Source: Bacteroides acidifaciens (GTDB taxonomy: Bacteria > Bacteroidota > Bacteroidia > Bacteroidales > Bacteroidaceae). From it: a stretch of DNA of 64,000 nucleotides. The notes beneath the pieces were generated by a model that searched no databases, had not been told where the DNA came from, and was given only the letters and a program-made list of their open reading frames with translations. Positions 18,439-29,377 of the stretch are shown here, one piece after another. Every line of letters begins with the position of its first letter. Position 1 is the first letter of the stretch. The stretch is taken from the NCBI RefSeq assembly GCF_903181435.1, contig NZ_CAEUHO010000004.1, forward strand, positions 186,001 through 250,000, in the 5' to 3' direction. The translations under genes were made by a program, and so were the position numbers.

Positions 18439-18776
18439 TTAGTAGCCGGGGTTTTGAACCCACTGCGGACACTTGTTAATTTCCGGTTGCGGGATAGGCA
18501 TCAGATATTGTGCTTCTTTGAAAGTACGGATTACGTTCAGTTCCTTCACTTGGAAAAAGTCTTCTTCTGTCTTGCCATAAATGTTCAGCCCCTTGACTTT
18601 TTCTCCTAATATTTCAGCTTGTTTCCAACGACGTAAATCCCAGAAACGGTGATTCTCGAGATAGAACTCAATCTGACGTTCACGACGTACAATTTCCCGT
18701 AACCCGTCTTGTGTATTGGCTTTTTCCGGATGCGCAGCCTTCTCCCAGGCAACATCAATTGTAGGAATACCAAGAG
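18439..18776 (-). pseudogene. SusD/RagB C-terminal remnant
   Basis: About 112 codons match only the end of a SusD protein: GIPTIDVAWEKA, REIVRRERQIEFYLENHRFW, DLRRWKQAEIL, then PIPQPEINKCPQWVQNPGY at the stop. The rest of susD and the whole of susC are missing. Homology stops abruptly near 18776, where the opposite strand begins to encode the middle of an SGNH hydrolase. The two genes were therefore divergent, and a deletion removed both 5' ends and everything between them. The reading frame continues to 18825 only as antisense of the hydrolase. Confidence 0.85.
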
Positions 18777-19648
18777 GAGATATTGACCTGTTGTTTATCG
18801 AAGGTGCCGTAAACGACCATACCAACGGGTTCTCTCCACGCGACCAAATCCGGGGAATGGAAGGGGTAGTCCGCCATGCACTGACAGCAAATCCTCATAC
18901 CGACATTATCATGCTGCACTTTGTATACGAGCCTTTCCTTCAGATGTTCCCCAAAGGGCAGACACCGGATGTTATTCTGAACCACGAAAGGGTTGCCAAT
19001 CATTATCTGATTCCTTCCATTAATTGTGCACAAGAAGTTTCAGAGCGGATAGAAGATAAAGAATTCACCTGGAAAGAATTCGGCGGTGTACATCCTAAAT
19101 GGTTCGGACACAAGTTTTATGCAGCCGACATACAAGCACTATGGGACGAAATGTGGTCATTGCCGGAGAATTGCACACGCCAGCCGCACGAAATACCTGC
19201 AAAGGCTTTGGACAAATACAGCTACACCAACGGAAAGTTTGTCGACTTGAAAGAAGCCCGGATTGAGAAAGGCTGGAGCATCCTCTCTTCCTGGCAACCG
19301 AAAGAGAAAACAGGTACACGAAAAGGGTTTGTCAATGTCCCGATGCTGTACTCCGACACTCCGGGAGCAACTTTCACGTATTCCTTCAAAGGAAAAGCAG
19401 TAGGTTTGTTCATGGCTTGCGGTCCCTATTCGGGAATCATCGAATATAGCATTGACGGCAAGGAATTCCGCAAACTGGATACATTTACCAAATGGAGCAA
19501 GGGACTCTATCTTCCCTGGCTGTATGTACTGGAGTCGGAACTGGATTCCCAAAAGACGCACAAACTAACCGTACGTATCTCCAAAGATAAAAATGCGAAG
19601 AGTAAGGGTATGGAATGTGTAATCCGCAATCTTGTGATTAACGAATAA
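18772..19648 (+). pseudogene. SGNH/GDSL hydrolase, 5'-truncated
   Basis: The frame encodes the back part of an SGNH hydrolase: block III with its Asn (DIDLLFIEGAVNDH), block V with the catalytic His (FGGVHPKWFGHKFYA), and a C-terminal beta-sandwich domain (residues from GFVNVPMLYS to VIRNLVINE). Block I, which holds the nucleophile Ser, is absent, so the product could not be an active esterase. The ATG at 18716 lies inside antisense SusD sequence and is not the native start. The 5' end was lost in the same deletion that truncated SusD. Confidence 0.8.
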
Positions 19649-19763
19649 GAATTGACTTAAATCAAAATTTTTCATACCAAACTCATCCTGGCTGATTTTG
19701 TTTTACCTTTGCACCCGCAAAAAAGAAAAGGTAAAAAGTAACAGGTATCAGGTTGAGTTTGGT

Positions 19764-20906
19764 ATGAAGAAAAGTCTTATCGCTTTGGCGTTCGGCACCC
19801 TGGGATTAGGTATTGCCGAATTTGTAATGATGGGTATTTTGCCCGACGTGGCAAAAGATTTGGGTATCAGTATCCCTATGGCGGGACATTTCATTTCTGC
19901 GTACGCATTGGGCGTTTGTGTTGGTGCTCCCGTACTGACGTTAGCTCGCAAATATCCATTAAAACATATCCTGCTGGTATTAGTCACCCTGATTATGATA
20001 GGTAATATCTGTGCGGCAATGGCTCCCAATTACTGGGTATTGCTTGCTGCACGCTTTATCTCCGGACTGCCGCATGGAGCATATTTCGGCGTGGGTTCCA
20101 TTGTTGCCGAAAGATTGGCTGACAAAGGAAAAGGCTCGGAAGCCGTTTCGATTATGATTGCCGGAATGACTATTGCCAACCTCTTCGGTGTCCCACTGGG
20201 AACCTCATTAAGTACCATGCTTTCCTGGCGTGCCACTTTCCTGCTGGTCGGTATTTGGGGAGTCGTTATTCTATATTACATCTGGCGTTGGGTTCCTCAC
20301 GTAGAAGGTCTGCAAGATACCGGCTTCAAAGGACAGTTCCGTTTCCTGAAAACTCCGGCTCCATGGTTGATTCTCGGTGCTACGGCATTAGGCAATGGCG
20401 GTGTATTCTGCTGGTATAGTTATATCAACCCGATGCTGACGAATATTTCCGGTTTTTCCGCCGAAAGTATTACTCCACTGATGATTCTTGCCGGATTCGG
20501 CATGGTCATGGGGAATCTTGTCAGCGGACGCCTCTCCGACCGTTATACACCGGGAAAGGTGGGAACTGCCGCGCAAGCATTAATCTGCCTTATGCTATTG
20601 CTTATCTTCTTTCTTTCACCCTACAAATGGATGGCTGCCATATTGATGTGCCTTTGCACAGCAGGCTTGTTTGCTGTATCCAGTCCCGAACAAATATTGA
20701 TTATCCGTGTATCGAAAGGTGGTGAGATGCTGGGGGCTGCCTGCGTACAAGTTGCATTCAATCTCGGAAATGCTATCGGGGCTTATGCAGGCGGATTGGC
20801 TGTCAGTGAAGGCTATCGTTATCCTGCCCTCACGGGTGTTCCTTTCGCGCTGATTGGGTTTGTTTTGTTCCTGGTCTTTTATAAGAAATACCAAGTCAAA
20901 TACTAA
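19764..20906 (+). CDS. MFS transporter (AraJ/arabinose-efflux-like)
   Basis: A membrane protein of about 380 residues, chosen to start at 19764 (MKKSLIALAFGTLGLGIAEF), because a -7-like box TACCTTTG lies at 19704-19711 inside the longer frame that opens at 19698. About 12 membrane helices are seen, with the motif GLPHGAYFGVGSIVAERLAD and GRLSDRYTPGKVG in the cytoplasmic loops. It resembles the AraJ/YdhP group of drug or sugar efflux permeases of the DHA1 type. The substrate is not known. A terminator hairpin follows at 20967. It is the last normal-composition gene before the AT-rich island. Confidence 0.85.
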   Translation: MKKSLIALAFGTLGLGIAEFVMMGILPDVAKDLGISIPMAGHFISAYALGVCVGAPVLTLARKYPLKHILLVLVTLIMIGNICAAMAPNYWVLLAARFISGLPHGAYFGVGSIVAERLADKGKGSEAVSIMIAGMTIANLFGVPLGTSLSTMLSWRATFLLVGIWGVVILYYIWRWVPHVEGLQDTGFKGQFRFLKTPAPWLILGATALGNGGVFCWYSYINPMLTNISGFSAESITPLMILAGFGMVMGNLVSGRLSDRYTPGKVGTAAQALICLMLLLIFFLSPYKWMAAILMCLCTAGLFAVSSPEQILIIRVSKGGEMLGAACVQVAFNLGNAIGAYAGGLAVSEGYRYPALTGVPFALIGFVLFLVFYKKYQVKY

Positions 20907-20966
20907 TATTCTTGAAGGTGTTGCTACTTGCTTTTACAGAATTCTATCAAGGCTTAGCGAGACCCG

Positions 20967-21010
20967 AAGGGGAGCAAACGGATTTATCCGGCTGTTCCCC
21001 TTATTTTTGT
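20967..21010 (+). terminator. Rho-independent terminator after the MFS gene
   Basis: A stem with outer arms AAGGGGA (20967-20973) and TCCCCTT (20996-21002) and an inner CGGA/TCCG pair is followed by ATTTTTGT on the plus strand. Confidence 0.6.
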
Positions 21011-21159
21011 AAATCCCATTGGAAACGAGATTGAGTACACTTTAATCCAGCCTGTTCCTCTCTAGCTGAAAGATTCATTTTTAATTAGGAATGAATGAAT
21101 TCTTTTCGGTAGGGTTATGAATGAAATGATAATTTAGAGTTCATTTCTGTGCAGTTATT

Positions 21160-21214
21160 TGTTATAAAAAACAAAAATCAAGTAGGGAGAAAACTTCTAG
21201 ACTTTTCTCCCTAC
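21160..21214 (-). terminator. Terminator of the leftward radical SAM operon
   Basis: The arms GTAGGGAGAAAA (21182-21193) and CTTTTCTCCCTAC (21202-21214) form a 12-bp stem. On the minus strand it is followed by a T-rich run (TTGATTTTTGTTTTTTAT). It closes the operon that ends with the gene at 21259. Confidence 0.7.
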
Positions 21215-21258
21215 CCCCTATTATCAACTAATTGAAATACCAAAGTTCTATTTATAGC

Positions 21259-21780
21259 TTACTCATGATGCGTATCTTGGACTATTTTTCTTGATAGTTC
21301 TTTTATAAAGCTGTCTCTGTCATTACAACTAAGTAGATAGCTTTTGCCTGTAGTTAAGATAAGAACTTGTTGTTTCGCATTTTTTACATAAGAATAATAT
21401 CTGCCGTATTGCGTACTCCCCATTACCCCTATATATCCAAGGAAACCATTACTCCCAAAGTAACGAATATCATTCTGTACCTCATTATAGGGAATCACCT
21501 TTTTGATAGAAGAATACATAATACTTTTCTTATTGAAAGCCCTTTTTATGAAAAGTTGTTTCTCCCCCAAATAAATAGCCTGTGGAATTACAACTAACAT
21601 ATACACAAAAATTGAGAGCAAAGTTATAGCCAACAATAGACTTAGTAGCTTATCAGACACAGACTGCATCAGATACGATTTCGCTAAGAACACCAAACCG
21701 GCTACTAATAAAATAGCTTTCAGCCAGAATTCCATACGCTTCATTACAGGTTGATAATCTGATTTATACATAATAATCAC
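21259..21780 (-). CDS. Small membrane protein with a PH-like domain
   Basis: A 173-residue protein with two membrane helices (residues about 20-38 and 43-68: LKAILLVAGLVFLAKSYLM, LLLAITLLSIFVYMLVVIPQ) followed by a soluble part in which a bacterial PH-like beta domain can be guessed (KRAFNKKSIMYSSIKKVIPY, GYIGVMGSTQYGRYYSYV, VLILTTGKSYLLS). The role is unknown. Its start overlaps the stop of the preceding lipoprotein gene by 4 bp (ATGA), so translation is coupled; a second Met lies 9 nt in. It is the last gene of the radical SAM operon. Small membrane proteins of this build occur beside peptide-modification genes in Bacteroidetes, but I would not assign a function. Confidence 0.7.
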   Translation of the reverse strand: MIIMYKSDYQPVMKRMEFWLKAILLVAGLVFLAKSYLMQSVSDKLLSLLLAITLLSIFVYMLVVIPQAIYLGEKQLFIKRAFNKKSIMYSSIKKVIPYNEVQNDIRYFGSNGFLGYIGVMGSTQYGRYYSYVKNAKQQVLILTTGKSYLLSCNDRDSFIKELSRKIVQDTHHE

Positions 21781-22574
21781 AAATTTAATGCATTCTGAAC
21801 TAACTCAACAAGTTCCTTATCAGTATATTGTTCTTTGACTTCCGGATGCTTTTCTTTTACTAAAGACACAACATCTTGAATATACAGGTTGTTATATTCA
21901 TCAGCTAACTTATACACACTTCCATCCTGCGTTTGAGCATCCCATACTTGTAATGCAGTTTCGCTATTAATAGTATTAGTAGCGGCCATGACAGGACCAC
22001 TAGGACCACCAATTGCATTATATTCAAGCCCTACTCCTGCATACGCAACTCCAATCAAAATCCATTCACCAATCCACCAAAACCCCATTGAAACATCTGT
22101 ATCTGGTCTTGAAACTCTAGTCATACTATTCTTCAAAAGATTTACATTAGAAGATACTGCATTCTTGAATACATCATTATCTTCACATAAAGTAACAAAT
22201 CGGCGAATATCTCTCTTCTCAATTGCATCTCTAAATTCAGGCTGACAAATTGCTAATAAGAAACGTACAGTTCCGTCATCTACATTTATCTCTGTCTTCA
22301 ATCCCAAAGATTGAGCATATCCTACAGGGTCTTTATAAAAAGAATCAGCGGCAGTGGTTTCATTCAAAATCAATTGAGATAGTAACCCCATATCCTGAAT
22401 ATAGTTTCTTTCATACTCTGACAGATTTTTCATTGAAATAGCAGTAACATCAGGATTTACAACCTCATTTTTAGGTAAGTCCACATTCAATATTCCATCT
22501 GAATTACTGCAAGATTGCAGCGAAGTAACAGCTATCGCTGCTCCAACACCAATTGACAAAATTTTACTTTTCAT
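21777..22574 (-). CDS. Lipoprotein of unknown function, coupled to a radical SAM gene
   Basis: A 265-residue protein with signal peptide and lipobox (AIAVTSLQSCSN). I do not recognise a named family. The middle has FYKDPVGYAQSLGL, reminiscent of leader segments in which a DP-x-x-x-x-x-LG motif docks a modifying enzyme, then a hydrophobic, aromatic- and Gly-rich stretch (GFWWIGEWILIGVAYAGVGL, about residues 163-182), and an acidic amphipathic tail (VSLVKEKHPEVKEQYTDKEL). Both ends overlap neighbours by 4 bp: with the radical SAM gene upstream and the PH-like membrane gene downstream. Such tight coupling suggests it is the substrate or a direct partner of the radical SAM enzyme. That is inference; a structural or transport role is equally open. 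Confidence 0.65.
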   Translation of the reverse strand: MKSKILSIGVGAAIAVTSLQSCSNSDGILNVDLPKNEVVNPDVTAISMKNLSEYERNYIQDMGLLSQLILNETTAADSFYKDPVGYAQSLGLKTEINVDDGTVRFLLAICQPEFRDAIEKRDIRRFVTLCEDNDVFKNAVSSNVNLLKNSMTRVSRPDTDVSMGFWWIGEWILIGVAYAGVGLEYNAIGGPSGPVMAATNTINSETALQVWDAQTQDGSVYKLADEYNNLYIQDVVSLVKEKHPEVKEQYTDKELVELVQNALNL

Positions 22575-23614
22575 TTTTTTTCAGTGTTTTTTTGTTTAAC
22601 ATTATACTTTAATATCACATTGGACGCATATTTGTGTATGTTTTTTCTCACATATTCTATCTTATCACAATCATTAAATAGAGCGAGACAAGCCTCACAA
22701 TTATGCATATCTACATTAATTTCAATATTTTCATTCCTGTCCTCGGCTATTTTCTTTAAAATAAATTTTGGTCCATCAACATATGCCCATACTTTCAAAA
22801 AATCATCAAATTGTTCTGCATATATTTCTTGAATACTTTTGGAATTAATATTACCTAATTTTAAATATTTAACCCTTTTACATGCTAATCCACAGCAAGC
22901 ATATACATACCCTTCCATATCAATAGGAATACTCTCAAATAAACTACTACATCCATAGGGTACAACAGGACGTTGCAAACATCTACATTGAAGCAATTCA
23001 TTATAATTTATATCTCGTTTAATTTTATCTTCAGAATTAAATGGAATCCATATACCAGAAGAAAAAGCGACCTTATTATTTTTAATACACTCCTTCAATT
23101 CTTCGTGTTCACGAAAATTTCTTTCATTAAAAGTTGAATTGGAGTTTGTTTCAATATTTACCAAACAAACTAAATCTAATTCTGCAGATGCCTTAATTGC
23201 ATTAACTATATTATTGAAAGGAACCCAAACTTGATGATCATCACCAGTACTCAGATTCAGCTCATTCAAACCTAATGCCTTCATTTTTCTTAATATAGAG
23301 TATGCTTTATCATAACTGGAAGCCCAATAACCATTGGAAACAACTCTAGTCATAAGACCTCTTTCATTTGCAAATTGCACGGCATGATATAGATCATCTT
23401 TTAAAGAAAAACATTCTCCACCACTAAAGACTACCAATTGTATTGTAGGGAAGGCTTCTGTACATTTATTAATATACATCTTTATTTGTTCAAAAGACAT
23501 TTTACCTTTACGGTCTTGATTACACTCAAAACAACAGTTTTTACAAGCAGCCGTACAATAATAAGTTGTTAGTAAAGATATTGTTCTTGGAGAAATTTGT
23601 TTAATTAGTTCCAT
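22571..23614 (-). CDS. Radical SAM protein with SPASM-like C-terminus
   Basis: A 347-residue protein with the radical SAM cluster motif C20-x3-C24-x2-C27 (CTAACKNC) in the expected N-terminal place. The TIM-barrel features follow: VVFSGGECFSLKDDL (GGE motif, SAM binding) and TRVVSNGYWA. The C-terminal third is rich in Cys (CRCLQRPVVPYGCSS; YACCGLACKRV; HNCEACLALFNDC), as in SPASM/twitch proteins that hold auxiliary iron-sulfur clusters and modify peptides. It overlaps the downstream lipoprotein gene by 4 bp. Upstream, 59 bp away, is the broken acyl-synthase gene, and it is probably transcribed from that gene's promoter. Base composition is clearly more AT-rich than that of flanking genes. Peptide maturation is the best guess; the substrate is unproven. 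Confidence 0.85.
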   Translation of the reverse strand: MELIKQISPRTISLLTTYYCTAACKNCCFECNQDRKGKMSFEQIKMYINKCTEAFPTIQLVVFSGGECFSLKDDLYHAVQFANERGLMTRVVSNGYWASSYDKAYSILRKMKALGLNELNLSTGDDHQVWVPFNNIVNAIKASAELDLVCLVNIETNSNSTFNERNFREHEELKECIKNNKVAFSSGIWIPFNSEDKIKRDINYNELLQCRCLQRPVVPYGCSSLFESIPIDMEGYVYACCGLACKRVKYLKLGNINSKSIQEIYAEQFDDFLKVWAYVDGPKFILKKIAEDRNENIEINVDMHNCEACLALFNDCDKIEYVRKNIHKYASNVILKYNVKQKNTEKK

Positions 23615-23673
23615 TTATTATAATATTTAATGTTGTTATCAACAAGTTCAAGATAGATTAAACTCCACTGACA

Positions 23674-24327
23674 TTATACGACTTTTTGTTTTGAATTTTC
23701 AGATATTAGTAGCAACTCATATTTTTTATAGAATGTTCTCAACCCTTCAGAAGAAGAATATATTGGAATAGTGTCAGAACCAAGATATACACACCCTCTG
23801 CCAAGTGTTTTTACATCAATAGATAACATTCTCATAATTCGCAATAATTTACTATCCGATTCAGCCAACATATAACTATTGGTGTGACTAACAATTGGAT
23901 GAATGGCAAGCATCATTAACTGCTTAAAAAGGATCAATGATGAGGCATTGCAACATGAATGAACAGCAAATCTTCCAACATGCCAGAACGAGAATTGATT
24001 TGAATTATGAAGTTCTTTAAGAGGATCAATATCAAATATTTTCTGTATCGGAAGTATAGAATGGCGATCTCATGCCATTACTCGAATGCACCCTATCAAA
24101 TCACCTTGAGCATCTTCTGCTACAAAAAGATATGATGAAGACACATATCTCATTTCCTCTTCATATATATATTGAATTTCTTGCTCAAAATTCACTAAAC
24201 AAGTATCCCCTATATGGTGTTTATAATTTTCGCGAACTATAAAATTAGCGATTTTATACAAATAAGATCTATCAACCTGAAAGATATTATAATTAGTATT
24301 TGTTATTAAAAGTCTTTTCATATTCAT
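23674..24327 (-). pseudogene. LuxI/FeeM-like acyl synthase (GNAT fold) broken by one in-frame TGA
   Basis: A single reading frame of 218 codons encodes an N-acyl synthase-like protein but is split by TGA at 24070-24072 (codon 86). Nothing else is wrong: the frame is the same on both sides. The first part has the GNAT/autoinducer-synthase block VSSSYLFVAEDAQGDLIGCI then RVMA; after the stop come DRHSILPIQKIF, FWHVGRFAVHSC, LAIHPIVSHTNSYMLAESD and YLGSDTIPIYS. Related proteins usually have Trp (TGG) before the DR of this loop, so a TGG to TGA change is likely. Length, the R-V-M loop and the GRFAV block resemble LuxI/FeeM-type enzymes that join an acyl chain to an amino acid or lactone. It leads the radical SAM operon and is divergent from a LuxR-type regulator. 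Readthrough cannot be excluded. Confidence 0.7.
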
Positions 24328-24342
24328 TATTTTTTGACTGCA

Positions 24343-24350
24343 TAAAATTA
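24343..24350 (-). promoter_or_regulatory. -7-like box of the acyl synthase-radical SAM operon
   Basis: The minus strand reads TAATTTTA, one base off TAnnTTTG. It is 30 bp from the centre of palindrome A and 16 bp before the start codon. The ThiF promoter (26014-26021) has the same distance and the same final A. Confidence 0.4.
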
Positions 24351-24373
24351 ATATGCCACAAAACAAAATCAAC

Positions 24374-24387
24374 TACACAAAAGTGTA
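24374..24387 (-). promoter_or_regulatory. Palindromic box A (TACACAAAAGTGTA)
   Basis: A perfect inverted repeat, TACAC-AAAA-GTGTA, 47 bp before the acyl-synthase start codon. Read toward the gene it is TACACTTTTGTGTAG. Near-identical copies stand before the luxR-type gene and the ThiF gene. It is the right size and place (centre about -41) for a LuxR-family activator site. Confidence 0.6.
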
Positions 24388-24412
24388 TAACATGATAAAA
24401 TCACATAAATAA

Positions 24413-24426
24413 TATACTTTTGTGTA
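24413..24426 (+). promoter_or_regulatory. Palindromic box B (TATACTTTTGTGTA)
   Basis: One mismatch from the perfect palindrome. The next bases (GTA) also match the other copies. It lies 55 bp before the regulator start codon at 24481. An AT-rich element at 24449-24457 or TACTTTTG at 24458-24465 could be the -7 box. Its presence suggests autoregulation. Confidence 0.55.
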
Positions 24427-24480
24427 GTAAATAGACACATTTAAAGATTAAAATTTATACTTTTGTAAAAACAATAAATT

Positions 24481-25236
24481 ATGGCTATAATAGAAGATTT
24501 CCTTATATCAACAAAACATATAGAGAACATTTCAGAAAAGGAGTATGATAAAGTTAAATCACTATTAGTTATATTAGACGCTATAGCACGCACAACTTAT
24601 CAAAGCTTTTATATAATAGATTATTTCCGAAACGATTTCCTATATGTTTCAGAAAATCAATTACTATTATGTGGACATACCGCTGATGAAATAAAAGAAA
24701 TGGGATTCATGTTCTATATAAAACATGTGCCAAATGAGGAACAAAAAATGCTAGTAGAACTAAATAAAAGTGGATTTAATTTTTATGAAAGATTGCCAAT
24801 AAAAGAACGTATGAGTTACAGCATATCGTATGACTTTCATATTATATCAAACAAGAAGAAAACCCTCATTAATCATAAACTGACACCAATCGCCCTAAGC
24901 AAAGATAATAGAATTTGGCTGGCGGTCTGTGTCGTATCGCTATCCGCCCATGAATCACCTGGTCACATTGAAATACGAAAACAAGGACAAACATCATTCT
25001 GGGAATATGTATTAGATAATCACAAGTGGATAGAAAATTCAGGAATAATTCTAACTGAAAAAGAAAAGGATATTTTATTATTATCAGCACGAGGATATAC
25101 CATGAATGACATAGCTGATTATTTATGCGTAGCAATAGATACAGTAAAATTCTACAAACGAAAATTATTTCAGAAATTGAATGTTAAAAACATTGCCGAA
25201 GCCATATCTTTTGCTACAAATTACAAATTATTATAG
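24481..25236 (+). CDS. PAS-LuxR transcriptional regulator
   Basis: A 251-residue cytoplasmic protein. Residues about 30-150 look like a PAS-type sensor (SFYIIDYFRNDFLYVSENQ, followed by an LCGHTADEIKEMG helix and ISYDFHIISNKKKTLINHK strands), and residues about 188-251 form a GerE/LuxR helix-turn-helix (LTEKEKDILLLSARGYTMND, IADYLCVAIDTVKFYKRKLF, QKLNVKNIAEAI). There is no receiver domain and no classic AHL-binding domain. It is divergent from the broken acyl-synthase gene across a 150-bp gap carrying two copies of the palindrome, and convergent with the ThiF-like gene (1 bp apart at their ends). It is the obvious candidate to bind the palindrome; what its PAS domain senses is unknown. Confidence 0.85.
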   Translation: MAIIEDFLISTKHIENISEKEYDKVKSLLVILDAIARTTYQSFYIIDYFRNDFLYVSENQLLLCGHTADEIKEMGFMFYIKHVPNEEQKMLVELNKSGFNFYERLPIKERMSYSISYDFHIISNKKKTLINHKLTPIALSKDNRIWLAVCVVSLSAHESPGHIEIRKQGQTSFWEYVLDNHKWIENSGIILTEKEKDILLLSARGYTMNDIADYLCVAIDTVKFYKRKLFQKLNVKNIAEAISFATNYKLL

Positions 25237-25237
25237 C

Positions 25238-25996
25238 TTAATGATTATCATAAAAAATAGAAGACAAATAAAATTTCGGGAAAAACTTAAGTTCTCTGCC
25301 TGTCGCTAAATTATATAAAGCGTGAACACAATGCCCAGCGGCAATCCAGGATCCTACAGAAAGCTGCGGAACTGGTGAAATACCATATTCTTTTTGATAC
25401 GTGTCTATTACTTGTTCAAGCCAGTTTTTGGGCATATTCCAAAAATTACCATAATGAGTAACATATTTCGCTACCTCCAAATCAAATCTTTCTGGCGTGC
25501 TTGCCAACTGCGATAATTTAATTCCATCAGGCTTAACTATCGTCAAAAATCCAGCCCATCCAAAATTATACGGATGCAACACAGATATATTATATTTCTC
25601 ACAAATATTATCAAATACGAATGGTATATCAGATGTAAAATCCAGCGCATTAATTGCAACATCGTGATCCCTAATCAAGCTTTCTACATTATCTTTATTA
25701 ATAAAACAATTATGATAATTAATACTCGCAGACGGATTGATATTCAATAGTCTTTTGGATAGACATTCAGCTTTATATTTCCCAACATCTAACATATCAT
25801 AATTCTGTCTATTCAAATTACTAAGTTCAACCCTATCCCCGTCAACAATAGTAATAGACTCAAATCCAAACCTTATGGCACATTCAGCAATAATACTTCC
25901 AATACCGGCTCCGCCTAATATTATGCGATATTTTTTAAGCAAATTCTGTTCCGCTTCACTTACATAAATCCAATTACGGCTATATCTTTCTTCCAT
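25238..25996 (-). CDS. ThiF/MoeB/HesA-type E1-like adenylating protein
   Basis: I choose the start at 25996 (252 residues), not 26173, because palindrome C and a -7-like box lie at 26014-26058 and the longer N-terminus has no family match. The Rossmann ATP-binding motif GGAGIGS, VDGDRVELSNLNRQNY (with the Arg of the adenylation site) and the DVAINALDF block are typical of ubiquitin-E1-like enzymes that adenylate a C-terminal carboxylate. No zinc CxxC pairs are seen and it is short, so it is not a housekeeping MoeB or ThiF. No ubiquitin-like carrier protein is visible nearby. Under the shared palindrome it appears co-regulated with the radical SAM operon; it may activate a peptide or amino-acid carboxylate there. 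Function is inferred. Confidence 0.75.
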   Translation of the reverse strand: MEERYSRNWIYVSEAEQNLLKKYRIILGGAGIGSIIAECAIRFGFESITIVDGDRVELSNLNRQNYDMLDVGKYKAECLSKRLLNINPSASINYHNCFINKDNVESLIRDHDVAINALDFTSDIPFVFDNICEKYNISVLHPYNFGWAGFLTIVKPDGIKLSQLASTPERFDLEVAKYVTHYGNFWNMPKNWLEQVIDTYQKEYGISPVPQLSVGSWIAAGHCVHALYNLATGRELKFFPKFYLSSIFYDNH

Positions 25997-26013
25997 AAAA
26001 ACACTACTTTGTG

Positions 26014-26021
26014 TAAAGATA
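26014..26021 (-). promoter_or_regulatory. -7-like box of the ThiF-like gene
   Basis: The minus strand reads TATCTTTA (TAnnTTTA). It lies 18 bp before the start codon and 30 bp from the centre of palindrome C, as at the acyl-synthase promoter. Confidence 0.4.
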
Positions 26022-26044
26022 AGGCTTAACTTTAATTTTATTAC

Positions 26045-26058
26045 TACACAAAAGTGTA
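26045..26058 (-). promoter_or_regulatory. Palindromic box C (TACACAAAAGTGTA)
   Basis: A perfect copy of box A, and the three preceding bases (TAC at 26042-26044) also match box B read on the other strand. It is 49 bp before the ThiF-like start codon and has the same orientation toward its gene as boxes A and B. Confidence 0.6.
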
Positions 26059-26147
26059 AAATTTGATTTAAGATAAAGAACAACGCATACAATCCAACGA
26101 ATAAGAATCCAATTAGCAACAAAATAAAGAAAGCAGAAATGAGATAA

Positions 26148-26291
26148 TCAGTACTCAGCCTGCCCCAATTCAAAAACTACCCGGTGGGAATCGTCGTACA
26201 AGCTTATCTGCCGAACGCATACGACTTTCAAACCGAACTGTTTGAATTCGCCAAAGCCCGCGTAACCGAATGCGATATTCTCTTGTCTTAA
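26148..26291 (+). pseudogene. Short proline-dehydrogenase-like remnant
   Basis: About 47 codons; the stretch NYPVGIVVQAYLPNAYDFQT with ELFEFAKARV after it resembles the proline dehydrogenase part of PutA-type enzymes. The likeness begins shortly after an in-frame stop at 26145 and ends just before the next stop at 26289. GC content rises to the level of the housekeeping genes exactly here. I read it as a scrap of an older gene at the right boundary of the AT-rich island. The match is short, so the family call is tentative. Confidence 0.35.
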
Positions 26292-26370
26292 CTTTCCTAT
26301 TGGAAGTAGTCAGGAATAAGGAGAAAAGACAGAAAGTGCACCAAATTTCCTTTATTAGTTCAAAAATGAT

Positions 26371-26378
26371 TATCTTTG
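26371..26378 (+). promoter_or_regulatory. -7 box of ychF
   Basis: TATCTTTG matches TAnnTTTG and lies 46 bp before the ychF start. No clear TTTG stands at -33 (TTTC about 21 bp upstream is the nearest). Confidence 0.45.
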
Positions 26379-26424
26379 CAAACTTAAATGAGCAACTTGG
26401 TAATAAAAGTAATAATAGATTAAT

Positions 26425-27528
26425 ATGGCATTGCAATGTGGTATTGTCGGACTACCGAACGTGGGTAAGTCGACACTTTTCAACTGTTTGTCGAACGCGA
26501 AAGCACAGGCGGCAAACTTCCCTTTCTGTACAATTGAACCCAATGTAGGTGTAATCACCGTTCCCGACGAACGTCTGAATGCACTGGCAGAATTGGTGCA
26601 TCCCCAACGAATTGTCCCTACAACCGTAGAAATCGTAGATATAGCCGGACTGGTGAAAGGCGCAAGCAAAGGTGAAGGACTGGGAAATAAGTTCCTTGCC
26701 AATATCCGTGAGACAGACGCAATTATCCACGTACTCCGTTGCTTCGACGATGAGAACGTGACACACGTAGACGGAAGCGTAAATCCCGTCCGCGACAAAG
26801 AAATCATCGACTACGAACTTCAACTGAAAGACTTGGAAACCATCGAAAGCCGTATCCAGAAAGTGCAGAAACAGGCACAGACAGGTGGCGACAAAGCTGC
26901 AAAACAGGCTTACGATGTGTTGGTTCAATATAAAGACGCACTGGAACAGGGAAAATCTGCACGTACCGTTACTTTCGAAACCAAAGACGAACAGAAGATT
27001 GCCCGTGAACTGTTCCTGCTGACCAGCAAACCGGTAATGTACGTTTGTAACGTTGATGAAGCAAGCGCGGTAAACGGTAATAAATACGTAGATATGGTAC
27101 GCGAAGCCGTAAAAGACGAGAATGCTCAAATCCTGATTGTCGCAGCCAAAACAGAAGCGGACATCGCCGAACTGGAAACGTACGAAGACCGTCAGATGTT
27201 CCTTGCCGAAGTAGGCTTGGAAGAATCGGGCGTAGCACGTCTTATCAAATCGGCTTATAAACTCCTGAACCTCGAAACTTACTTCACAGCCGGCGTACAG
27301 GAAGTACGTGCCTGGACTTACGAAAAGGGATGGAAAGCTCCGCAATGCGCTGGTGTTATCCACACCGATTTTGAAAAAGGCTTTATCCGCGCGGAAGTTA
27401 TCAAGTACGAAGATTATATCCAGTACGGTTCGGAAGCAGCCGTGAAAGAAGCCGGAAAACTGGGTGTGGAAGGAAAAGAATATGTCGTACAGGATGGCGA
27501 CATCATGCATTTCCGTTTCAACGTGTGA
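26425..27528 (+). CDS. ychF: Redox-regulated ATPase YchF (Obg-family)
   Basis: A 367-residue cytoplasmic P-loop protein at the normal length for YchF/OLA1. Visible motifs are Walker A GLPNVGKST at residues 8-16, the switch/G3 VDIAGLVKGASKGEG and the atypical G4 motif CNVDE in place of NKxD, which explains why the family prefers ATP to GTP. The C-terminal TGS domain ends with DGDIMHFRFNV. It binds the ribosome and is linked to translation and oxidative stress responses in other bacteria. It stands just outside the AT-rich island and is followed by panE and lgt in the same direction. Confidence 0.97.
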   Translation: MALQCGIVGLPNVGKSTLFNCLSNAKAQAANFPFCTIEPNVGVITVPDERLNALAELVHPQRIVPTTVEIVDIAGLVKGASKGEGLGNKFLANIRETDAIIHVLRCFDDENVTHVDGSVNPVRDKEIIDYELQLKDLETIESRIQKVQKQAQTGGDKAAKQAYDVLVQYKDALEQGKSARTVTFETKDEQKIARELFLLTSKPVMYVCNVDEASAVNGNKYVDMVREAVKDENAQILIVAAKTEADIAELETYEDRQMFLAEVGLEESGVARLIKSAYKLLNLETYFTAGVQEVRAWTYEKGWKAPQCAGVIHTDFEKGFIRAEVIKYEDYIQYGSEAAVKEAGKLGVEGKEYVVQDGDIMHFRFNV

Positions 27529-27575
27529 TTATCGGCAATCACCGACGACTTATTAATTACTAATTCGCTAACAAT

Positions 27576-28493
27576 ATGAAATATCTCATTGCAGGAACGG
27601 GAGGTGTAGGCGGCAGTATCGCAGGATTCTTGTCGCTGGCAGGCAAAGATGTAACCTGTATTGCCCGTGGAGCTCATTTGCAGTCGATTCAAACGGACGG
27701 TTTGACACTGAAGTCGGATTTGAAGGGCGAACATACGCTCCGGATTCCGGCAACTACCGCTGAAGAATTCAATGGAAAAGCAGATGTGATATTTGTATGC
27801 GTAAAAGGTTATTCGGTCGATTCTATCGTAGAACTGATTAAAAGAGCAGCGCACAAAGACACGGTTGTCATCCCTATTCTGAATGTATACGGCACAGGAC
27901 CACGCATACAGAAACTGGTTCCGGGAGTCACGGTTCTCGATGGATGCATCTATATCGTAGGTTTCGTATCCAGCACAGGAGAAATCACCCAAATGGGAAC
28001 AATATTCCGTCTGGTATATGGTGCTCACCACGGCACGGTTGTGAAACCCGGATTACTGGAAGCTATCCGCCAAGACTTGCAGGAAGCAGGCATAAAGGTA
28101 GACCTCTCACCGAACATCAACCGGGATACGTTCATCAAATGGTCGTTTATCTCCGCAATGGCTGTGACGGGTGCTTACTACGACGTTCCGATGGGAGAAG
28201 TGCAAAAACCGGGAAAGATACGGGATACATTTATCGGACTTTCCACGGAAAGCGCCGCCTTAGGAAAGAAACTGGGCGTCGAATTTCCCGAAGACCCAGT
28301 CAGCTACAACCTGAAAGTGATTGACAAGCTCGCCCCCGAAAGTACCGCTTCTATGCAGAAAGACCTGGCACGCGGACACGACTCGGAAATACAGGGATTG
28401 CTCTTCGACATGATTGCGGCAGCCGAGGAACAAGGAATAGACATACCGACCTATCGGATGGTTGCGGAGAAATTCAAAGAATCTAATCATTAA
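27576..28493 (+). CDS. panE: 2-dehydropantoate 2-reductase
   Basis: A 305-residue ketopantoate reductase family protein. The N-terminal NADPH motif is [13 protein letters not shown]; the central block [12 protein letters not shown] and the catalytic Lys region ([20 protein letters not shown]) follow, and the C-terminal helical domain has [17 protein letters not shown] with the conserved Ser-x-x-x-Asp/Glu region. It reduces 2-dehydropantoate to pantoate with NADPH in the pantothenate/CoA pathway. Paralogues of this family with other ketoacid substrates exist, so the gene symbol is likely rather than certain. It lies 47 bp after ychF and 17 bp before lgt. Confidence 0.88.
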
Positions 28494-28510
28494 CATTAAT
28501 CCAATATAGA

Positions 28511-29377
28511 ATGAATACCATGCTATTATCCATCAACTGGAACCCGAATCCCGAACTATTCAACCTGTTCGGCATTTCTATCCGTTATTACGGATTACTA
28601 TGGGCAGTAGGAATATTCTTTGCTTATATGGTTGTTCACTACCAGTACCGGGATAAAAAGATAGAAGAAAAGAAGTTTGACCCGCTTTTCTTTTACTGTT
28701 TCTTTGGTATTCTGATCGGTGCGCGCCTGGGACACTGCTTGTTCTATGCCCCGGGATATTACCTGTCTCATTTCTGGGAAATGATTCTTCCCATCAAGTT
28801 CATGCCGGACGGAAACTGGAAATTCACCGGATATGAAGGACTTGCCAGCCACGGCGGTACATTGGGATTGATAATCGCCCTTTGGCTGTATTGCCGCAAG
28901 ACGAAGCTTCATTATATGGACGTGCTGGATATGATTGCCGTAGCTACTCCTATCACTGCCTGCTTCATCCGCCTTGCCAACCTGATGAACTCCGAAATCA
29001 TCGGCAAACCGTCTGATGTGCCCTGGGCGTTTGTTTTCGAGCGTGTGAAAGAATATGGAGCAAACGGTGAAATACTTCCGGCAATCCCCCGCCATCCGGG
29101 ACAACTCTACGAAGCCATCGCTTATCTCATCCTGTTCTTCATCATGATTTACCTGTATAAGAATTACAGCAAGAAACTGCACCGCGGCTTCTTCTTCGGG
29201 TTTTGCCTGACTTACATATTCACTTTCCGCTTCTTTATCGAATTCCTGAAAGAAAACCAGGAAGATTTTGAAAACAGCATGATGCTCAATATGGGACAAT
29301 GGTTAAGCGTTCCGTTTATCATCATAGGCGTCTATTTTATGTTCTTCTATGACAAGAAGAAAAAGAAAATAGCTTAA
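28511..29377 (+). CDS. lgt: Prolipoprotein diacylglyceryl transferase
   Basis: A 288-residue inner-membrane protein with about seven membrane segments. Lgt signatures are present: [16 protein letters not shown] at the N-terminus, the [10 protein letters not shown] block, [26 protein letters not shown] (the Lgt signature region with the essential Arg and Asn) and RHPGQLYEA. It moves diacylglycerol from phosphatidylglycerol to the lipobox Cys of prelipoproteins, which in Bacteroides includes the many SusD-type proteins encoded in this window. It is followed by a strong bidirectional terminator. Confidence 0.97.

Follow-up and report, generated by a model that had tools for sequence, protein, structure and literature searches.

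A candidate LuxI/LuxR-like signalling cassette with peptide cargo in an AT-rich island of Bacteroides acidifaciens

Several described systems share parts with the locus considered here, a six-gene AT-rich island of Bacteroides acidifaciens that lies within a stretch of 64,000 nucleotides (contig NZ_CAEUHO010000004.1, positions 186,001 to 250,000; the window, below) and encodes a FeeM/LuxI-like N-acyl synthase, a PAS-LuxR regulator, a ThiF-type enzyme, a radical S-adenosylmethionine (SAM) enzyme, a lipoprotein and a membrane protein with a PH domain. TyzA, whose nearest folds are FeeM and BjaI, works with the ThiF homologue TyzB in the ATP-dependent cyclisation of N-acyl-tyrosine (PMC10404671), and TrzAS forms a comparable pathway, whose oxazolones have been likened to N-acyl-homoserine lactones (AHLs; PMC12856293). 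The Oxz, Tyz and Trz pathways include a nitroreductase-type oxidase. The epipeptide of Bacillus subtilis, a product of radical SAM chemistry, is membrane-active (PMC7026026).

A first-pass annotation of the window had taken the six genes for a single system that may make or sense an acylated or modified peptide signal. Comparison across genomes points to a different organization: the island genes are two modules, one consisting of the synthase, ThiF and PAS-LuxR genes (module A) and the other of the radical SAM, lipoprotein and PH protein genes (module B), and a signalling unit with exchangeable cargo is a better reading than a six-gene system. On balance we favour the view that the island couples peptide cargo to a LuxI/LuxR-like signalling cassette, which would use an N-acyl-amino-acid signal, probably an oxazolone, to control an epimerised lipoprotein-peptide. 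To our knowledge, no synthase-receptor quorum-sensing pair is established in gut Bacteroides, and a search of open-access papers found none on this cassette. The genes are concrete, the operator is defined and a chemical class is predicted, which makes the question testable. If the reading is true, oxazolone-type lipids would gain a role in biology. The operator pair is a genomic handle on silent clusters for ribosomally synthesised and post-translationally modified peptides (RiPPs) in Bacteroidota.

The synthase, ThiF and regulator genes

Judged by its distribution, the conserved unit is the synthase together with the ThiF and LuxR genes. The family of G001, the nearest relative genome compared, is probably Bacteroidaceae; ThiF is present in 11 of its 251 genomes, at 12 places, and a LuxR gene accompanies it at every one. 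The synthase was found in eight genomes, all within those 11 (p 4.7e-13; this and the other p values for co-inheritance ignore kinship). It is full-length at six of the ThiF places (L107, L109, L111, L113, L114 and L116), broken, truncated or a remnant at L106, L110 and L112, and not seen at L108 (where a contig end is near), L115 and L117. Among 395 sampled Bacteroidota genomes, ThiF and the synthase occur in an identical set of 11 (p 1.3e-21), in one of which, G003, the synthase is only a remnant. The other 10 carriers, from two further families of the same class, f10 and f14, each have one LuxR orthologue (E<1e-40) adjoining a synthase. These families are likely to be flavobacterial, given that one of them groups together with a named gene from Riemerella. 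Their 12 ThiF places comprise five with the gene order and strands of the window (L156-L160), one with adjacent synthase and ThiF genes and no LuxR (L167), four at which ThiF lies about 7-12 kb from the synthase-LuxR pair on the same contig (L207-L210), and two in G494 on contigs other than that of the pair. On a Riemerella plasmid (L142), ThiF and a helix-turn-helix regulator stand tail to tail, and the regulator matches our profile at E 6e-97. Separately, we observed that at L106, L110, L112, L139 (G125) and L141 (G057) the regulator is kept with a synthase that is truncated, broken or not found.

The synthase gene of the window (about positions 23,674 to 24,327, minus strand) is interrupted. 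Its frame contains a single premature in-frame stop (24,070 to 24,072, minus strand, from frame reading) at residue 86 of 217, and the gene is therefore broken in this strain; the earlier call of a LuxI/FeeM-like synthase stands for its family and fold, and not for an intact gene. A protein-database entry of 215 residues (P0105, with 16 member sequences) is unbroken and 99% identical. Pfam FeeM matched 17 of 22 family members at E<=1, the best at 3.7e-7, and the window synthase, with the stop read as X, scored 23.3 bits, under the cut-off of 27. A PDB fold search with the AlphaFold model of P0105 (predicted local distance difference test, pLDDT, 88.7) placed LasI (E 1.9e-8), TofI, FeeM and BjaI among the top matches, FeeM having the highest query-normalised template-modelling score (0.63) among the 50 PDB matches listed. 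Many other GNAT structures matched as well, as the fold would predict, and the model is consistent with an AHL-synthase-like fold. AHL synthases carry an ExxR motif; its Glu is not present in the synthase family, which has WHxGR, with W113, H114, G116 and R117 invariant in alignment A4.

The PAS-LuxR regulator (24,481 to 25,236, plus strand) is head to head with the synthase and tail to tail with the ThiF gene, so that its description as divergent applies to the synthase side alone. GerE was found in all 16 members of the regulator family, and PAS_3, weakly, in two, in agreement with the original assignment; a match to the structure 3clo spans profile positions 72-252. The LuxR autoinducer-binding domain PF03472 had no match in the 16 members (Pfam, E<=0.1). 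From its position, the PAS domain may be the receptor.

The remaining gene of module A (25,238 to 25,996, minus strand) encodes a ThiF-type E1-like adenylating enzyme, as had been proposed (PF00899, 113.8 bits). Its match to 9egb, 9egc and 9egd (E 2.5e-94), a solved ThiF homologue, amounts to 57% identity, and the same structures are 61-69% identical to 11 of the 12 f10/f14 ThiF proteins; no paper behind 9egb-9egd was found among open-access literature. Residues C39 and C132 are near-invariant, being kept in 26 of 27 rows. The ThiF tree holds 27 rows, and the degenerate ThiF of L117 was left out of it.

Paired operators upstream of the regulator

The first-pass annotation had noted a promoter box shared by the regulator region and the ThiF gene. 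The box, TACACAAAAGTGTA, is a 5-4-5 inverted repeat, with five-base arms flanking four A/T positions, and it is found in pairs. Exact copies stand at 24,374 to 24,387 (plus strand), the first of a pair that also recurs in relatives, and at 26,045 to 26,058 (plus strand), upstream of the ThiF gene; the second box of the pair, with one mismatch, lies 39 bp on at 24,413 to 24,426 (minus strand). The shared box is thereby upheld and its role as a general promoter element ruled out, since the exact pair described next is confined to 11 of 251 genomes and has a regulator or remnant within 1 kb. The number of boxes in the window alone is not above chance (10 sites with <=3 mismatches against a shuffle mean of 6.8, with as many in 20 of 100 shuffles), and the weight lies on the pair and on comparison. 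A sigma-70 scan found promoter-like sites to be rarer than in shuffles, and tandem-repeat and Rfam scans gave nothing useful.

Across the 251 genomes of the G001 family, the exact pair ACACWWWWGTGT-N25-28-ACACWWWWGTGT was found in 11, and its reversed control in none. A LuxR gene or remnant lies within 1 kb of the pair in all 11, and ThiF is present in eight of them (p 7.5e-11, kinship ignored). The three without ThiF, G057 (L141), G125 (L139) and G239 (L136), have LuxR or a remnant at the pair. Other pairs precede an outer-membrane-protein relative (L138), lie close to a sugar-nucleotide-gene relative (L137) or sit at a remnant of the regulator (L140).

A relaxed scan, which allowed <=2 mismatches per box and 36-40 bp between box starts upstream of the regulator, found a pair at 16 of 24 loci, including the window, five f14 loci (L156-L160), L207 and the Riemerella plasmid, and in none of 1000 base shuffles for each stretch. 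In G003 (L112), a box with different arms, TACCCAATTGGGTA, occurs twice, 38 bp apart, upstream of the LuxR gene (0 of 500 base shuffles), and of 60 genomes of the genus only G003 itself has this pair; it was also the sole find of a palindrome scan without a central spacer. The changed arms at an unchanged spacing are the strongest sign that the pair is read by the LuxR protein itself. The conservation of the paired repeats, an inverted-repeat operator near the synthase, strongly suggests that the GerE head reads them.

The island and its radical SAM module

The AT-rich, apparently foreign stretch of 5.5 kb lies between an MFS gene and ychF (about 20,913 to 26,413, no strand). Homologues of the window segments 19,728-20,912 and 26,414-29,028 are separated by only about 50 bp in G001 (L168), to which the ychF region is 96% identical, and the stretch is therefore an insertion or a replacement. 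The lower GC content that had been noted for the six genes was borne out (0.30-0.36 versus 0.44-0.49 for five flanking genes, which we take to be MFS, ychF, panE, lgt and mutS), and GC at third codon positions differs likewise (0.19-0.34 versus 0.48-0.58). At the right edge, 114 bp (26,161 to 26,274, plus strand) survive of a long gene, being 76% identical to part of a 1162-residue open reading frame (ORF) that G652 has at the same site (L200) and that is presumably putA-like. The inserts at the MFS-ychF site differ in G652 and G660. To the left, two truncated-looking frames overlap: a 128-residue frame (18,439-18,825) that resembles, by eye, the C-terminal end of a SusD/RagB protein, and a hydrolase-like frame with a TTG start (18,716-19,648). 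A plasmid origin is unsupported: ThiF matches in seven plasmid records reach <=51% identity, and radical SAM matches in nine such records are all below 60%.

Module B consists of a PH-domain membrane protein resembling an immunity protein (21,259 to 21,780; PF10882, 84 bits), a 265-residue lipoprotein with lipobox Cys22, predicted to be the precursor and radical SAM substrate (21,777 to 22,574), and a radical SAM/SPASM enzyme like EpeE/YydG (22,571 to 23,614), all on the minus strand. The translational overlaps reported earlier are 4 bp at both junctions. A peptide-modifying radical SAM/SPASM enzyme, as first described, agrees with PF13186 and with similarity to the EpeE structures 8ai1-8ai6 (E 1e-22 to 4e-21), EpeE being the nearest solved relative. 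We take C223 to be the critical cysteine of EpeE. The CxxxCxxC motif and later CC of the window enzyme align with 8ai1/8ai6, and C240 and C241 are kept in 79 of 79 rows with letters (81 rows in total). In EpeE, the later CC includes a critical cysteine (PMC8326336).

By gene content, module B, with its enzyme, predicted substrate and immunity-like protein, appears to recur in different phyla. The radical SAM family, for which 80 loci were kept of 160 confirmed, spans many phyla; by clustering, a lipoprotein relative lies within 6 kb at 37 of the 80 loci and a PH relative at 18. Ten small membrane proteins near radical SAM genes include six over the Pfam cut-off (one bPH_4, three DUF1648, two SdpI), of which one is on the opposite strand and some are not exactly third; the other four comprise two weak bPH matches and two without a match. 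SdpI is the immunity protein for the SDP toxin. Cys22 is invariant in alignment A6, 29 selected lipoprotein rows from which L005, which lacks the cysteine, and members outside Bacteroidota were left out. Side observations in this family include a synthase-like match (E 2e-10) about 7 kb from the radical SAM cassette at L012 and, where a contig of G001 ends (G001:C112:59-502, L095/L120), a partial relative interrupted by a stop. Long Val/Ala/Asn-rich runs in radical SAM neighbours of Calidithermus, Thermogemmatispora and Vibrio (L057 9330-9950, L050 9104-9820 and L028 11002-12042) are reminiscent of polytheonamide-type cores.

The strongest alternative, which we nevertheless consider doubtful, is that module B makes no peptide weapon, the enzyme instead maturing a lipoprotein of structural or sensory function, for which the PH protein would be the membrane partner. 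The window precursor is long (265 residues) and fails a test for a V/A/I-rich, L-poor core of 30 residues, having instead a W-rich stretch near residues 163-185, and its AlphaFold model is poor (pLDDT 52.9; a helical domain at 53-135 is best, 139-216 is below 50), too weak for a fold search. In contrast, such cores occur in radical SAM neighbours at 47 of 80 loci against 10 of 633 other ORFs, by a criterion chosen after examples had been inspected, and the companion membrane protein switches between bPH, DUF1648 and SdpI, as immunity genes may. Given the likeness to EpeE, the missing V/A/I core and the precedent for RiPP-lipoprotein hybrids (PMC12636315), epimerisation of the window lipoprotein is a reasoned guess.

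Cargo, mechanism and relation to known systems

The cargo of module A is variable, to judge from gene content, and frequently, although not always, concerned with peptide modification and export. In G346, genes for an outer-membrane protein, a class I lanthipeptide leader (NF038153, 41.1 bits, cut-off 22), LanB, LanC and a C39 exporter lie between LuxR and ThiF. G592 has an NHLP-like precursor array (one precursor scanned: TIGR03793, 55.8 bits, cut-off 50.9) with an NHLM HlyD protein, an arrangement repeated in G272, and G557 has two NHLM exporters that pass the cut-off. G193 has a C39 exporter together with a PapB-like radical SAM enzyme that scores 176 bits against a cut-off of 340, and L158 has a C39 exporter. 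At L111, a weak LanC-like match reaches 15 bits (cut-off 23.2) and a TIGR04157 glycosyltransferase 376.6 bits (cut-off 400). OMP_b-brl_3 proteins are present at L106 and L156 (by Pfam) and at L107, L109, L110, L112, L117 and L159 (by clustering), and L107 also has a transglutaminase-like protein (20.6 bits, cut-off 23) and an O-antigen-ligase-like protein. The latter two proteins are common to L107 (2547-7452) and L118 (7724-14017), where they flank a radical SAM cassette.

We suggest the following sequence of events. The FeeM-like synthase would N-acylate an amino acid, and ThiF would activate the carboxylate of the N-acyl amino acid with ATP and close a ring, the simplest product, by analogy with Oxz, Tyz and Trz, being a 5(4H)-oxazolone, which resembles an acyl lactone. 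The signal would be bound by the PAS domain of the LuxR protein, whose GerE head, on paired 5-4-5 repeats 38-39 bp apart, would switch on the synthase, ThiF and neighbouring cargo. In the window, the EpeE-like enzyme is likely to epimerise residues within the hydrophobic region of the lipoprotein precursor, to give a membrane-active, lipid-anchored peptide against which the PH protein may confer self-protection. The earlier guess of an acylated signal seems right, with the chemistry drawn from the analogy just given. An undescribed signal may, these arrangements suggest, switch on peptide weapons. Repeated loss of the synthase suggests receivers without senders, and with its own synthase broken this strain may stay silent or may respond to neighbours in which the gene is intact.

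Several points weigh against this reading. Besides the broken synthase and the failed core test, the radical SAM enzyme scores 98.2 bits against TIGR04078 (YydG), for which the cut-off is 300. The regulator is non-adjacent at seven of the 12 ThiF places outside the G001 family, synthase+LuxR loci are unclustered on the ThiF tree (five changes, shuffled mean 4.6), and no relaxed pair precedes the regulator at eight of the 24 loci (L036, L112, L113, L116 and L208-L211), although at L113 a pair lies beyond the synthase instead. Single exact boxes in 10 genomes of other families are no commoner than the reversed control. No nitroreductase-type oxidase is among the six island genes, other loci having been scanned in part, and a saturated oxazolone or its opening product is therefore to be expected. 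Because oxazolones are reactive, a different derivative may serve as the final signal.

ThiF is also frequently found in the neighbourhood of RiPP genes, and peptides might be its substrates. It is conceivable, if improbable, that the synthase and ThiF are tailoring enzymes, which acylate a peptide and activate its C-terminus as MccB does, the LuxR protein being merely a cluster regulator. Module A stands beside or around RiPP-type genes at several loci, ThiF enzymes build certain RiPPs (PMC12250964), and the relatives of ThiF in the PDB include MccB. The last relationship is distant, however (E 2e-9); the cargo changes between LanB/LanC, NHLP, PapB-like and EpeE-like types while synthase and ThiF stay homologous; and the neighbours scanned at L156 (an outer-membrane protein) and L160 (two proteins) are not of RiPP type, in a scan that was not exhaustive. 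The signal, rather than the lipoprotein, is the more likely target of the E1-like enzyme.

We give similarly little credence to a non-signal metabolite as the product of synthase and ThiF, with PAS-LuxR sensing something else, for instance redox state or a host molecule. No ligand is assigned to the PAS domain, the regulator has no PF03472 match, and oxazolone signalling is only a suggestion in PMC12856293. On the other hand, the layout is divergent and LuxI/LuxR-like, with operator pairs, and the regulator is kept without a synthase (lost or not found) in G057 and G125, like LuxR solos. Finally, the six genes as one conserved system can be dismissed, because the families split across genomes: within the G001 family, radical SAM relatives occur in three of 251 genomes, none among the 11 with ThiF, and LuxR and ThiF adjoin the radical SAM cassette at just one of 80 other loci (L036), many of which are on short contigs.

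The signalling cassette with peptide cargo may be one instance of something wider. Tentatively, and with the balance tipping against it, we propose that Bacteroidota have a LuxI/LuxR-like quorum sensing of their own, in which a FeeM-like synthase and an E1-like cyclase would make acyl-oxazolone-type signals, and a PAS-LuxR protein on paired operators with exchangeable arms would gate exchangeable RiPP weapons (here an epimerised, lipid-anchored peptide), the synthase often being lost and the receiver kept.

Module B resembles yydFGHIJ/epe of Bacillus subtilis in its related radical SAM enzyme (EpeE/YydG), with the same cysteine pattern, and differs in having a 265-residue lipoprotein in place of a short precursor and the PH protein in place of YydIJ; no YydH-type protease is among the six island genes. 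It shares with the DAG-RiPPs (DybA/DybH) of Bacteroidota the combination of a RiPP enzyme and a precursor with a lipoprotein signal (PMC12636315), and the lipobox cysteine is present in the window (C22) and in A6, though not in L005. Unlike those systems, which use an MNIO enzyme, the island has a radical SAM enzyme and a large precursor, and no MNIO enzyme is among its six genes. Module A is like LuxI/LuxR AHL quorum sensing in that a LuxI-fold synthase diverges from a GerE regulator, with inverted repeats before the synthase; it is unlike it in its PAS-type front domain, extra ThiF, paired operators and Bacteroidota host, and in a synthase that matches Pfam FeeM and not an autoinducer-synthase family. 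In Proteobacteria, luxR genes also adjoin biosynthetic clusters (PMC5872303), whereas the island is in another phylum and has a synthase and a ThiF partner. OxzAB of Pseudoalteromonas rubra and TyzACB and TrzAS of Mycobacterium share with module A an N-acyltransferase and a ThiF-type cyclase, matching the FeeM-like acyltransferase and co-inherited ThiF homologue found here; unlike these pathways, the island lacks a nitroreductase and adds a LuxR regulator, operator pairs and RiPP-type cargo.

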